In this document: piece by piece, positions 12,213 to 45,660 of the stretch
How positions within the stretch are numbered: the first letter of the stretch is position 1
Layout of the letters: every line of letters begins with the position of its first letter
DNA from: Crossiella sp. SN42
GTDB lineage: Bacteria > Actinomycetota > Actinomycetes > Mycobacteriales > Pseudonocardiaceae
Reading direction: 5' to 3'
DNA: 45,660 nucleotides
Assembly (NCBI RefSeq): GCF_023897065.1
Contig: NZ_JAMHIV010000054.1
Span: 1-45,660 of the forward strand
Position numbers and translations under genes: made by a program
Notes under the pieces: generated by a model
Told to the model about the DNA's origin: nothing
Databases searched by the model: none
What the model saw: only the letters and a program-made list of their open reading frames with translations

Positions 12213-13270
12213 TCAGAAGGCTGCTGACCCGCACAACAGCGCTGCTGGCAACAACGGCAGCGCTGTTGTGCATGTCGGCGGCCCCCGCACTGGCCGCCGC
12301 CGACCCACCGGCCCCGGTCGAGAAGTGCCGCTACACCGACAAACGCCTCAAGGAGCTCAGCGGCCTGGCCAGCGACGGCAAACGCTGGTACGCCATGGCC
12401 GACGGCGGTTCCCGCCTGCAAGTCCTGGTCCTCACCCCGGACTGCAAGGTCGAACGCACCATCACCAACGCCACCGACCCCTTCGACGTCGAAGACCTGG
12501 CCAGAGCCGCCGACGGCACCCTCTGGCTCGCCGACACCGGCGACAACGGCAAAAAACGCGACAACATCGCCCTGCACGCCCTGACCCCCAACGGCAAGGC
12601 GACCCTCTACCGCCTGACCTACCCAGACGGCCCCCACGACGCCGAAGCCCTGCTGCTGGACCGCAAAGGCACCCCGTACATCGTCACCAAGGAGCCCTTC
12701 GCCCCGGCTGGCATCTACCGCCCCAGCAAGGCACTGACGGCGCCCGGCCCCACGGCGCTGGAGAAGGTCGGCACCATCCGCATCACCACCACCAGCACCC
12801 CCGGCGGCCCAGTAGGCGGCATCGGCTCAGTCCTGGTAACCGGCGGCGCGGTAAACCAAGACGGCACCATGGCCGCCCTGCGCACTTACACCGACGCCCT
12901 CCTGTTCCCAGCCCCCGACGGCGACCTGGCCGAAGCCCTCAAACGCGACCCGGTGCGAATCCCCCTGCCAAACGAGTCCCAGGGCGAAGCCATCGCATTC
13001 GACCCAGACGGCACCCTGTTGTCCGGCTCCGAGGAAATGGACCCCATCAGAGCGGTCCCCGGCGCGGTGAAGTTCGCCAGCGGCAACGCCCCAGCCCCAG
13101 CCCAGAAGTCGGAGACGAAGGCACCGAACGGCACCGGGAACCAGGCAGCGGGCCAACCCACAGACGAAGGCAGCGGAGGCGGCACGTCCTGGGGCGCGAT
13201 CCTGCTGGCCGGAGTTGGCGTAGTCGCAGTGGTTTTCCTCGTCAGCCGCACGCGAAAAGCAAAGCGCTAG
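12209..13270 (+). CDS. Exported membrane-anchored beta-propeller-like protein (esterase-like phytase type)
   Basis: The 353-aa protein has a signal peptide (about residues 1-30, ending AAPALAAAD). An extracellular domain of about 260 residues follows, with repeated blade-like blocks (KELSGLASDGKRWYAMADGG, DPFDVEDLARAADGTLWLAD, GPHDAEALLLDRKGTPYIVT, ESQGEAIAFDPDGTLLSGSE). Then come a Ser/Gly/Pro-rich linker and a C-terminal membrane helix (WGAILLAGVGVVAVVFLV) with a positively charged tail. The repeats resemble phytase/esterase-like propellers, and similar genes follow hflX in related actinomycetes; no activity is proven. The GTG start overlaps the hflX stop by 4 nt. Many A-ended codons distinguish it from hflX. 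Element A lies 3' of it. Confidence 0.75.
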   Translation: MIRRLLTRTTALLATTAALLCMSAAPALAAADPPAPVEKCRYTDKRLKELSGLASDGKRWYAMADGGSRLQVLVLTPDCKVERTITNATDPFDVEDLARAADGTLWLADTGDNGKKRDNIALHALTPNGKATLYRLTYPDGPHDAEALLLDRKGTPYIVTKEPFAPAGIYRPSKALTAPGPTALEKVGTIRITTTSTPGGPVGGIGSVLVTGGAVNQDGTMAALRTYTDALLFPAPDGDLAEALKRDPVRIPLPNESQGEAIAFDPDGTLLSGSEEMDPIRAVPGAVKFASGNAPAPAQKSETKAPNGTGNQAAGQPTDEGSGGGTSWGAILLAGVGVVAVVFLVSRTRKAKR

Positions 13271-13277
13271 CGAGCAA

Positions 13278-13298
13278 CCAGCGACGGGCTGGCTTTTC
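13278..13298 (+). terminator. Weak stem-loop with T-run at the 3' end of the beta-propeller gene
   Basis: CCAGC (13278-13282) pairs with GCTGG (13288-13292) and is followed by CTTTTC. The stem is only 5 bp, so its strength is doubtful. Confidence 0.35.
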
Positions 13299-13312
13299 AA
13301 AACTTGTCCGAA

Positions 13313-13474
13313 GTCTTGAGGTTCCCCATGCCCGTCAACCTGGAGACATCGCACCACATCCCAGCGAGCAGACGCTCACAGCAACCGCCGCCAAAGCCAC
13401 GCCACGTGACGGCGGCTGCTCGCTGGGATGTGGTTCGATTTCGGAAGGTTGACGGGCATGGGGAATCTCAAGAC
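13313..13474. repeat. Element A, hairpin 1
   Basis: The outer arms 13313-13341 and 13446-13474 (29 nt each, starting GTCTTGAGGTTCCCCATGCC) pair at 28 positions plus one G-T. After an 11/11 internal loop, the inner arms 13353-13371 and 13416-13434 (ACCACATCCCAGCGAGCAG) pair perfectly over 19 bp. CCGCCG (13385-13390) pairs with CGGCGG (13410-13415) near the tip. The apical segment 13371-13406 (GACGCTCACAGCAACCGCCG onwards) recurs almost unchanged in element B on a different stem. Confidence 0.9.
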
Positions 13475-13517
13475 CCGCTTGCGTCTCTGCCTGTGACTTT
13501 CCCCCCATGCTTTGATC

Positions 13518-13604
13518 TCTGCCCGTCCGGCGAGGACGCTCTTGACTTTGATCTTCGACTGAAACCCCGAAGATCAAAAGAAGTGTCCTCGCCGGACGGG
13601 CAGA
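13518..13604. repeat. Element A, hairpin 2
   Basis: The arms TCTGCCCGTCCGGCGAGGAC (13518-13537) and its complement (13585-13604) pair perfectly over 20 bp. After a 9/6 internal loop, TTTGATCTTCG (13547-13557) pairs with CGAAGATCAAA (13568-13578) over 11 bp, leaving a 10-nt loop. Both stems are identical in element B, while the loop there is 17 nt. Confidence 0.9.
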
Positions 13605-13690
13605 CCCCCGGAGGGGTTGACAAGTCAAAAGCCGGGACAAGCAGGTTGCGGGGCGGGGTTCGGGTTGCCGGGGCCGATTCCAGCGTGCTC

Positions 13691-13852
13691 GCGAGCCTCT
13701 CGTCTTCTCCGCACGACCTTCCGACAGCAAACCACACCTCCCCACCCGGCCCCCGTCACGTTGCGAAGCTAGGGCGGCGGCAGGTTGCAGGGGCCGGGCG
13801 GGGAGGCGCGGTTAGCGGTCTCCAGGCCGTACGGAGAAGACGAGAGGCTCGC
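13691..13852. repeat. Element A, hairpin 3
   Basis: The outer arms 13691-13711 and 13832-13852 (GCGAGCCTCTCGTCTTCTCC plus G) pair perfectly over 21 bp. The inner arms CTCCCCACCCGGCCCC (13738-13753) and 13790-13805 pair at 15 of 16 positions. Element B has the same outer stem with one A-T pair changed to G-C, and a wholly different but self-complementary inner stem. Confidence 0.9.
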
Positions 13853-13918
13853 TTTGTGGGTTTTCAACCCCGGGCTGCGCCCGAACCCCGGTGCATCAGT
13901 GCTCCTAACATGGCGTCA

Positions 13919-14629
13919 ATGACGACGCGCATGGAGACCGTCACCGTCTCTGACGGCACCTTTGACCTCACCGTCTGGCTTCCGGACGCTCCCGAGACTC
14001 CGCGGCCCGGCATCCTGCTCGTCCAGGAGGTCTTCGGCGTCGGCCCCTACATCCGTGCCGTGGCTGAGGACCTGGCCGCCCTCGGTTACGTGGTCGCCGC
14101 CCCCGACCTCTTCTGGCGGCAGCACCGCAACTGGGCCGCCGACCATGACGACGCCGGTCTGCAAGCCTCCATGGCGCTCGTCGGCCAGTACGACTTCCCC
14201 CGTGGCGTCCTCGACTGCCAGGCCTCCCTCGACGTCCTGCGCGGACTGCCTGAAGTCGCCGGGCAGCCCGTCGGCGCGCTGGGCTTCTGCTTCGGGGGTT
14301 CGATGACCTTCTTCCTTGGTGCGCAAGGAAACCCGGACGCCGTGGTCTCCTTCTACGGCTCGGTTGTGCCGGACAGTGCGGCCCTGCTCGACAAGATCAG
14401 CGTGCCCACCCTGATGCACTTCGGCGGCGACGACCCCTACATCGCCCGTGAGGACATCGCCAAGGTGGAAGCCGCGGCCGAGGGCAAGCCGCATGTCGAG
14501 CTGCACGTCCAGGAGGACGCCGGTCACGCCTTCCACAACCGCATGGCCCCGGCGTTCCACCACCCGGAGGCGGCGGCCAGGGCCTGGCGGTTGACGGAGG
14601 AGTTCCTGGGGCGGGTGTTGCCGGTCTAG
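13919..14629 (+). CDS. Dienelactone hydrolase family protein
   Basis: This alpha/beta hydrolase of about 236 aa has the family's Cys nucleophile in GFCFGGS, the aspartate in FGGDDPYI and the histidine in DAGHAFHN, which form a Cys-Asp-His triad. RPGILLVQEVFGVGPYIRAVAEDLA is the usual N-terminal block. It likely hydrolyses lactones or small esters in the cytoplasm; the substrate is unknown. The start is ambiguous among ATG 13910, 13919 and 13931. I favour 13919 because TAACAT (13906-13911) lies exactly 7 nt before it, typical of a leaderless mRNA, and no ribosome site is seen. The stop overlaps the stop of the convergent ceramidase gene. Confidence 0.88.
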   Translation: MTTRMETVTVSDGTFDLTVWLPDAPETPRPGILLVQEVFGVGPYIRAVAEDLAALGYVVAAPDLFWRQHRNWAADHDDAGLQASMALVGQYDFPRGVLDCQASLDVLRGLPEVAGQPVGALGFCFGGSMTFFLGAQGNPDAVVSFYGSVVPDSAALLDKISVPTLMHFGGDDPYIAREDIAKVEAAAEGKPHVELHVQEDAGHAFHNRMAPAFHHPEAAARAWRLTEEFLGRVLPV

Positions 14630-43727: not shown

Positions 43728-44291
43728 GTGAGCACCGACGACAAGCCGCCCCGCCGCCTGGTGCCGTTCGCCCTGGTGGCGCTGGCGGCCTTCGCGGCGG
43801 ACCTGATCACCAAGGACCTCGCGGTCGCCGCGCTCGACGGGCAGCCGCCGGTCCGGGTGGCCGGTGGCGCGCTGTACCTGGTGCTGCTGCACAACCCCGG
43901 CGCGGCGTTCTCGCTGTTCCCCGGCCAGACCTGGCTGCTGACGCTGATCACCACGCTGGTCGTGCTGGCCATCCTGATCTTCGCGCCCCGGCTGCGCTCC
44001 ACCGGCTGGGCCGTGGGCATCAGCCTGGTGCTGGGCGGCGCCCTGGGCAACCTGGCCGACCGGCTGACCCGCCCGCCCGGCTTCGCCGAGGGACATGTGG
44101 TGGACTTCCTGTCACTGTTCGCCCCCGACGGCAGCGTGTGGCCGGTGTTCAACATCGCCGACGCGGCCATCGTCAGCGGCGGCGTGCTCCTGGTGCTGCT
44201 GGCCCTCTTCGGCGTCGACTACGACGGCAGACGGGCCGGGCGCGGAGCAGATCAGACGAAGGCTGAGGCCACGGTGGAGGAAAACGCGTGA
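43728..44291 (+). CDS. lspA: Lipoprotein signal peptidase (signal peptidase II) LspA
   Basis: This 187-aa membrane aspartyl protease removes signal peptides from prolipoproteins. It has four membrane helices. Conserved boxes are [41 protein letters not shown] (first catalytic Asp), VVDFL and [12 protein letters not shown] (second Asp). The GTG start lacks a ribosome site but has GACAAT 6 nt upstream. The stop overlaps the next start (GTGA). Confidence 0.96.
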
Positions 44292-45220
44292 GTGACCAGA
44301 GGACCCTGCCGGTGCCGGACGGCCTGGACGGCATGCGAGTGGACGCGGGCCTGTCCAAACTGCTGGGCCTGTCCCGCACGGTCGCGGCCGGCCTGGCCGA
44401 GACCGGCGGAGTCCTGCTCGACGGCCAGCCCGCGGGCAAGTCCGACCGCCTGGTCGCCGGCTCCTGGCTGGAGGTCACCCTCCCCGAACCGGAACACCCC
44501 GCCCCGATGCTCGCCGCCCCGGTGGACGGCCTGGTCGTGCTGCACGAGGACGACGACATCGTGGTCATCGACAAACCGGTAGGCGTCGCCGTGCACCCCA
44601 GCCCCGGCTGGACCGGCCCCACGGTCGTCGCGGGCCTGGCCGCCGCGGGCATCCAGATCGCCACCTCCGGCGCGGCCGAGCGCCAGGGCGTGGTGCACCG
44701 GCTGGACGTGGGCACCACCGGCGTGATGGTGGTGGCCAAGAGCGAACACGCGTACTCGGTGCTGAAGCGGGCGTTCAAGGAACGGACCGTGGAGAAGCGG
44801 TACCACGCGTTGGTGCAAGGACATCCGGATCCCAGCCGGGGCACCATCGACGCCCCGATCGACCGGCACCCGCGACAGGACTACAAGTTCGCGGTGGTCG
44901 CCAGCGGCAAGCCGAGCGTCACGCACTACGAGGTGATGGAGGCGTTCCGGGCGGCGTCGCTGGTGGACGTGCGGCTGGAGACCGGCCGGACCCACCAGAT
45001 CCGGGTGCACTTCTCGGCATTGCGGCATCCCTGCGTGGGGGATTTGACGTATGGCGCGGATCCGGTGCTGGCGAAGAAGCTCAACTTGACGCGGCAGTGG
45101 TTGCAGGCGCGGTCATTGGGCTTCCACCACCCGGCGCATGAGGGATGGGTGGAGTTCACCAGCGAGTACCCGGCGGACTTGCAGACGGCTTTGGACTCAC
45201 TGCGCGCGGACAGCTGGTAA
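44288..45220 (+). CDS. rluD: 23S rRNA pseudouridine synthase, RluA/RluD family
   Basis: The 310-aa enzyme has an N-terminal S4 RNA-binding domain ([20 protein letters not shown]) and a catalytic domain with [18 protein letters not shown] (catalytic D140), [12 protein letters not shown] and [19 protein letters not shown]. The lspA-rluD pairing with 4-nt overlap is conserved in actinobacteria. Assignment to RluD rather than another RluA-family member rests on this context. Element B starts about 30 nt after its stop. Confidence 0.93.
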
Positions 45221-45660
45221 GCGAAAAGCCTTTGCCGAGGGGTGACAACCCACAAAGCGGGGCTCTCGTCTTCTCCGTACGGCCTGGAGACTGCTAACCG
45301 CATCCCCACCAGCGGACGCTCACAGCAACCGCCGCCGAGGCCACGCCACGCAACGGTGGCCGTTGGTGGGGATGTGGTTCGCTGTCGGAAGGTCGTGCGG
45401 AGAAGACGAGAGGCCCGCGAGCACGCTGGGTCTTGAGTCGGCAGCCTGCCCCGCCCCGCAACCTGCTCGTCCCGGCTTTTGACTTGTCCCCACCTCCGGG
45501 GGTCTGCCCGTCCGGCGAGGACATTCTTTTGATCTTCGGGGTTTCAGGCGAAGAGCGAAGATCAAAGTCAAGAGCGTCCTCGCCGGACGGGCAGAGATCA
45601 AAGCATGGGGGGAAAGTCAAAGTCAAAGGCCAAGACGCAGGCGGGTCTTGAGGTTCCCCA
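45221..45660. repeat. Element B: inverted, diverged copy of element A, cut by the window end
   Basis: From about 45250 (AACCCACAAAGCG) to 45660 the sequence is homologous to the complement of element A from about 13862 to 13446. The first hairpin has outer arms 45257-45277 and 45388-45408 (21 bp, one mismatch) and a self-complementary inner stem (45293-45315 with 45360-45382) unlike that of element A. The second hairpin (45503-45522 with 45576-45595, inner 45528-45538 with 45556-45566) is identical in its stems to hairpin 2. The last bases repeat an arm of hairpin 1, so the copy continues beyond the window. No protein gene is supported. Confidence 0.85.

Follow-up and report, generated by a model that had tools for sequence, protein, structure and literature searches.

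A family-specific interspersed inverted repeat of Crossiella and its relatives that may act as an RNA module at gene 3′ ends

What is the large set of layered inverted repeats that separates two genes of Crossiella sp. SN42, and is it kept as DNA or as RNA? The window that we analysed is a complete contig (45,660 bases). The gap follows a plus-strand gene (12272–13270) that ends 42 nt before position 13313; the first-pass annotation had called it a beta-propeller gene, and it has a weak Pfam Phytase-like match. It precedes a plus-strand dienelactone hydrolase gene (13919–14629, by Pfam). That annotation had described three nested inverted repeats at 13313–13871 and had offered three readings of them: a non-autonomous mobile element, a structured RNA and a chromosome-organising palindrome. 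The three repeats are indeed present, with arms at 13313–13375/13412–13474 (63 nt, 89% complementary), 13518–13540/13582–13604 (23 nt, 96%) and 13691–13753/13790–13852 (63 nt, 84%), and they fold far better than shuffled sequences. Comparison of copies showed that they are alike from ~13281 to 13871 and unlike outside, placing the start of the element slightly upstream of the 13313 first given. Our own composition-based gene caller placed no gene inside, in agreement with the earlier view that the gap holds no credible ORF, although long open frames do cross it (for example 13304–14629 on the plus and 13335–13745 on the minus strand).

The element (13281–13871) is an inverted dimer, made of unit A on the plus strand and unit C on the minus strand, with their T-rich ends face to face. 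In the sense of the unit, the order of parts is outer stem, internal loop, inner stem, loop, spacer, 19-nt core and T-rich tract. In unit A, the predicted RNA fold pairs a 29-bp outer stem (13313–13341 with 13446–13474), followed by a 3 × 3 internal loop in which GGA (13342–13344) opposes GGA (13443–13445) and by an inner stem (13345–13371 with 13416–13442) delineated by folding and covariation. The spacer and pre-core (13475–13518), in which CCCCATGC of the outer 5′ arm recurs, lead to the core, CTGCCCGTCCGGCGAGGAC (13519–13537), with its small hairpin GTCC-GGCGA-GGAC, and then to a T-rich tract evident from base frequencies (13538–13550). Unit C, read on the minus strand, has a two-storey hairpin at 13691–13852 (outer arms 13824–13852 and 13691–13719) that encloses an inner stem and loop at 13723–13820 (arms 13786–13820 and 13723–13758), a spacer at 13604–13690 with CCGCAACCTGC and CCCCTCCGGGGG ahead of the core, and the core at 13585–13603. 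The middle repeat, B, consists of the two cores facing one another. The A and C hairpins are paralogues in inverted orientation, with different outer stems and exchangeable inner modules. The 29 bp given earlier for the first outer stem hold, while the third outer stem, at 29 bp with G-U pairs, exceeds the earlier figure. The GGA–GGA opposition occurs in the 106 of 115 units that fit our search pattern, a constancy partly due to construction as the pattern itself called for GGA in the 5′ arm and for either GGA or GTA in the 3′ arm. Five hybrid copies (L009, L013, L015, L016 and L020) carry a third hairpin type, A′, with other stems and the same internal-loop plan.

Folding of 13313–13560 as RNA gave an unbroken 29-bp outer stem and a z-score of −11.5 (200 dinucleotide shuffles), and folding of the minus strand of 13570–13871 gave −8.9 (100 shuffles); in neither case did a shuffle match the observed energy.

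The second copy noted earlier, an inverted relative after rluD, lies on the minus strand at 45239–45660, behind a plus-strand pseudouridine synthase gene (44288–45220, by Pfam), and has 84% identity over query positions 147–558. Its cores are at 45504–45522 (plus) and 45576–45594 (minus); its unit A hairpin is lost at the contig end. The copy is incomplete through an assembly break, and its orthologue in the nearest genome, G081, is complete (L136). Several contigs of the SN42 assembly end inside copies of the element.

The two copies are far from the only ones in the genome; the finding of just two, which the first-pass annotation had named among the results that would speak against it, is clearly not borne out. 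Copies or parts of copies were found at 23 fetched loci of the SN42 genome (L001–L023), six of them near full, with at least one more short remnant on contig 32. Among these loci, L007/L021 and L012/L017 are each one element split over two contigs, because each pair maps to a single locus in G081, a genome classed in the same species, yet with a flank identity of ~95%. G081 holds 12 near-full copies and further partial ones (40 of 67 candidates scored), and the congener G002 holds at least 37 full-length and three partial copies (40 of 161 candidates scored). The copies listed for these genomes are clustered: in G081, 16 of the 18 fetched loci at 0.5–3.3 Mb are on the plus strand and no listed locus lies at 3.3–6.0 Mb; among those listed for G002, no full copy lies at 5.1–7.7 Mb.

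Searches with the whole element in 60 genomes, including that of SN42, matched seven, and long matches occurred only in SN42 itself (G000), G001 and G002. The exact core reaches further: it is found in 89 of 297 genomes of the family and in 24 of 46 genera, at least ten times in 18 of the 297 genomes, with no match for a reversed control. In a sample of 296 genomes from across the class, none of the 294 that belong to other families has it. A relaxed core gave 16 matches in 14 genomes of this sample besides SN42; these look like chance matches, as none was exact and the reversed control matched nine genomes. Related loci include those of Amycolatopsis and Solihabitans. Outside the window genus the element occurs as single units (Amycolatopsis) or as back-to-back pairs, and in G182, G195 and G238 two cores are paired in inverted, outward-facing orientation. 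At four loci of other genera (L081, L085, L089 and L091) the internal-loop arms can often be read as mini-hairpins, such as GGC-GAA-GCC and CCC-TCC-GGG, and may form a four-way junction.

The stems are conserved by compensatory change. Among 106 hairpins there are several positions of the inner stem that vary between three or four Watson–Crick pair types while remaining mostly paired. In an alignment of 34 hairpins (32 distinct), hand-chosen from 99 distinct hairpins, mostly of the commonest length, and pre-selected for at least 14 of 22 outer-stem pairs, 99.7% of cells were paired and 16 of 33 pairs were altered on both sides, the pairs having been named after the base-pair profile was seen, with seldom-pairing positions left out. 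Doubly changed cells numbered 153, compared with 47.9 in shuffles (a number reached by none of 500) and no more than 27 with the arms slid; the copies are related, such that these cells, like the mismatches counted below, are not independent events. Of the 16 pairs altered on both sides, 13 belong to the inner stem, which was not selected for pairing.

The mismatches that remain in the stems bear on the nature of the folded molecule. Using a stem finder with an equal penalty for every mismatch, we counted on the unit strand 257 G·T and three A·C oppositions in 111 hairpins of the window genus (four further units had no hairpin), and 172 G·T and 28 A·C in 94 hairpins of other genera (13 further units had none). 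For the latter set the count took only the closest hairpin, at most 230 nt away, since a neighbour in inverted orientation shows up as A·C; without this limit it stood at 176 to 38. Other mismatches, internal loops included, were more numerous than G·T and A·C (607 and 324 cells in the two sets). Hairpin by hairpin, G·T-rich outnumbered A·C-rich by 83 to one in the window genus (27 ties) and by 60 to eight in other genera (26 ties); those eight of 94 hairpins with more A·C than G·T count against an RNA reading.

An exception came from the A-unit outer stems of G002, which at fixed 29 positions gave 27 A·C and 41 G·T; these cells were left outside the stem by the mismatch-penalising finder, which gave no A·C in G002. 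An apparent A·C excess in the A-unit outer stems of G000 (11 to three) and G081 (14 to six) was discarded, since all A·C fell at one position past the 29-bp stem; inside that stem there were zero A·C and three G·T in G000, and zero and six in G081. Counts of G-U pairs over whole folds showed no G-U excess for the unit strand and a certain excess for the opposite strand in A and A′ units, and were set aside because RNA folding permits G-U and not A-C and such counts include flanking pairs. The unpaired spacer has a mild bias (C/T 56/1006, A/G 22/579) that, at just ~1.5-fold, argues against strand-biased mutation as the sole cause of the asymmetry.

These data speak against a chromosome-organising or cruciform-forming DNA palindrome, the third of the original readings. 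Such a palindrome would account for the great length of the stems and for the grouping of the listed copies in certain chromosomal regions. However, in a cruciform both strands fold, so that G·T and A·C should be tolerated alike, which is at odds with 257 and three; divergent gene pairs are also avoided by the element (see below). We regard this explanation as very unlikely. The structured-RNA reading, by contrast, is the best supported of the three, by the covariation and by the excess of G·T over A·C on one strand. Judging from these substitution patterns, what is maintained seems to be a single-stranded structure of one sense, most probably RNA. Tolerance of G·T would also fit single-stranded DNA of one strand, and this is the main rival.

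The region downstream of the large hairpin suggests what an RNA might do. Intrinsic terminators consist of a GC-rich hairpin placed at once before a T-rich tract and often lie behind genes. In the element, the core hairpin stands right before such a tract: T occupies positions +5 and +6 after the core at 92% and 98% of 114 sites in the window genus and at 80% and 74% of 106 sites in other genera. The core stem is only 4 bp, however, which is weak for an intrinsic terminator and counts against a terminator reading; the element also differs from one in its conserved loop and 5′ flank, in the far larger hairpin upstream and in being interspersed. The core stem itself covaries, with T8–A18 replaced by G8–C18 at 19 sites in G002 copies (a form also read in G001) and by C8–G18 at two sites in G003 copies, and eight of nine listed core variants retain all four pairs. 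The CTGCCC and GGCGA letters of the core are conserved. Since a terminator has no need of 19 invariant nucleotides, the core may be read by a sequence-specific factor.

The pre-core tends to repeat part of the 5′ arm. The mean longest word shared by the two was 6.74, compared with 4.85 after shuffling and 5.33 with the pre-cores of other genomes, and the shared word exceeded the shuffled one in 158 of 198 units; the effect was absent in G302, G218 and G139. The repeat makes an alternative pairing possible. Forms without the large hairpin occur in G001 (L222–L224 and L226) and at L118, and the sequence of these forms would fit a deletion between the pre-core and 5′-arm repeats; L231 of G001 retains part of hairpin A. 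In an elaboration that we consider improbable, the whole element would represent a new class of interspersed RNA elements, restricted to one actinobacterial family, that provides genes with a prefabricated message end; some factor would read the CTGCCC...GGCGA core by its sequence, and the outer 3′ arm would pair with either the 5′ arm or the pre-core, making a switchable terminator that a mobile repeat carries between genes.

In the window genus, copies avoid divergent gene pairs and prefer gene 3′ ends. We placed 52 copies from three genomes, some of them orthologous, relative to genes called by our simple caller; all are near full-length except the partial L146. Of these copies, 31 lie between convergent, 20 between codirectional and one between divergent genes; in G002 alone, 21 of 33 copies are convergent and one divergent. 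Fourteen of the 52, the window copy among them, have a (+,+) arrangement in which unit C is antisense to its neighbours, a point against the 3′-end reading. Among 57 loci, mostly of other genera, 13 are convergent, 19 codirectional and four divergent, and 21 lack a called gene on at least one side. Where a called gene edge lies within 400 nt upstream of the core, that gene is in sense in 12 of 13 loci in the set L111–L133. In the sets L081–L110, L033–L035 and L041, a nearby upstream gene is in sense in just six of ten; some of these units belong to back-to-back pairs and some lie in gene-poor stretches. Because the sense preference outside Amycolatopsis is weak, we weighted the RNA 3′-end reading slightly down and the single-stranded-DNA rival up. 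The proximity of many units to the gene they follow, in sense, in turn speaks against a repeated gene for a trans-acting small RNA, which the strong RNA-like structure and the conserved CTGCCC and GGCGA letters would suit; we hold that explanation to be very remote.

How the copies came to be dispersed is a separate matter. At the 13281–13871 locus, both neighbour genes are kept in G001, G002 and G003, which lack the element. It is missing from all three behind rluD as well, where the next gene is that of G081 in G003 and a different one in G001 and G002. The presence of the neighbour genes without the element in congeners indicates that it was gained in the line of the window or lost several times. 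The edges of the element-free sites have diverged and do not align closely, and no target duplication could be read. At two such sites (L205 and L213, in G001 and G003) we observed GGCCAA-type repeats related to a short tandem repeat (~GTTGGCCGTTGTNGTACG) that adjoins many copies in G001 (flanks of L222–L230). Flank-orthologous copies exist in G081 for all 23 SN42 loci, and for five in the G002 set and one in the G003 set; recent movement was not seen, as all 23 loci are common to SN42 and G081. In one copy of SN42 (L023, contig C13, ~192957–194329) an IS30-like transposase gene, identified by eye, interrupts the middle repeat.

A partner enzyme was sought among transposases. The Y1_Tnp domain (PF01797) has no match in the SN42 genome or in G081, so a Y1/RAYT transposase was rejected as the partner in the SN42 genome; the domain matches 61 of 297 family genomes and two of the 18 with at least ten exact cores. 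Inspection by eye of ten loci with called proteins revealed no recurrent transposase. At two Amycolatopsis loci (L117 and L122) the unit lies beside integrase gene remnants, again by eye; a link to integrases was dropped, as no remnants were seen in eight other loci of the same set, and ARAGORN found no whole tRNA in L106. Thus, of the original proposal of a non-autonomous mobile element, dispersal is supported by the many copies, the lack of a called gene and the congeners without the element at both window loci, whereas we saw neither a transposase nor a target duplication nor recent movement.

Two forms of selfish element were weighed against these data. MITEs are short, multicopy, gene-less elements with inverted symmetry, and our element shares these properties; the outward inverted core pairs of G182, G195 and G238 also favour a MITE, mobilised by a double-strand (DDE) transposase that acts on terminal inverted repeats and duplicates its target. 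Yet the cores of the window genus are central rather than terminal, no target duplication could be read at the diverged edges of the element-free sites, no related transposase was found, and a MITE leaves the strand-specific structure, with its asymmetry of mismatches, unexplained. This origin is highly unlikely. A purely selfish REPIN-like element, mobilised in single-stranded DNA form through recognition of one-strand hairpins by an HUH-type enzyme, would account for the inverted dimers, the extragenic position, the strand-specific hairpins, the conserved core, the congeners without the element and the weak sense preference outside Amycolatopsis. Here the RNA would have no role and gene 3′ ends would merely tolerate the insertions. 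The distribution of Y1_Tnp (our HUH search covered Y1 only), the lack of a recurrent transposase and the sharing of every SN42 locus with G081 argue against it, and we consider it possible, though clearly less probable than a role as RNA.

The first-pass annotation recognised no named family, and our searches matched the element to none. Rfam gave no match at the gathering cut-off in ten related loci, and sub-threshold microRNA-like matches in the window were not taken as evidence. Plasmid and phage collections held no match to the window element or to the related L034 unit, and no description of the element was found in the open literature searched. Its closest counterparts are REP, BIME and REPIN sequences, described in PMC3733652 and PMC3116915 as extragenic palindromic units, often in inverted pairs and mostly between convergent or unidirectional genes, with a proposed action through RNA and, for REPIN hairpins, compensatory changes. 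The REPs treated there are 20–40 bp long with a GTAG or CGTC tag, those with GTAG accompanying RAYT transposases (PMC3733652, PMC3116915). A term search of PMC3733652 gave no mention of "actino", "Streptomyces", "Amycolatopsis" or "Mycobacterium". Like these sequences, our element forms inverted pairs (with single units also in other genera) and is extragenic between convergent or unidirectional genes in 51 of 52 copies of the window genus and in 32 of 36 loci, mostly of other genera, with both neighbours called. By contrast, its unit measures ~200–300 nt, with one hairpin alone spanning 162 nt; no GTAG occurs in the 34-hairpin consensus or the core; the CGTC present in the exact core is likewise not fixed, variants having CGGC or CGCC instead; and G000 and G081 lack PF01797. 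The two-storey hairpin, the different conserved core, the T-rich end and the actinobacterial family as host further set it apart. We therefore file it as REP/BIME-like in its working, and not as a REP, given its size, tag and lack of Y1.

Taken together, the sense-specific structure, the position at gene ends and a core made of a hairpin plus a T-tract fit an RNA module at message ends. Our main reading, to which we assign a probability of roughly one half on the strength of sequence comparison, is that the element is an interspersed repeat specific to one family, with no gene of its own, that acts as a non-autonomous, REP/BIME-like 3′-end or terminator module of mRNA. The unit would work as RNA in the 3′ untranslated region of the preceding gene, where the core hairpin and U-rich tract would end transcription and the large hairpin would block 3′-to-5′ decay. 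In the window genus, two units joined with their T-rich ends facing would give each of two convergent genes a unit of its own and could form a two-way barrier to transcription. The copies would have spread as a non-autonomous element by means of some enzyme and been partly homogenised by gene conversion.

Comparing G·T with A·C counts is a cheap test, applicable to palindromic repeats of bacteria in general, for telling maintenance as an RNA-like single strand from maintenance as duplex DNA. If our reading is correct, there are large REP-like systems that fall outside the known GTAG and CGTC types and whose hosts have no Y1 enzyme. If the element indeed defines message ends, a single repeat family would shape the 3′ ends of many genes.
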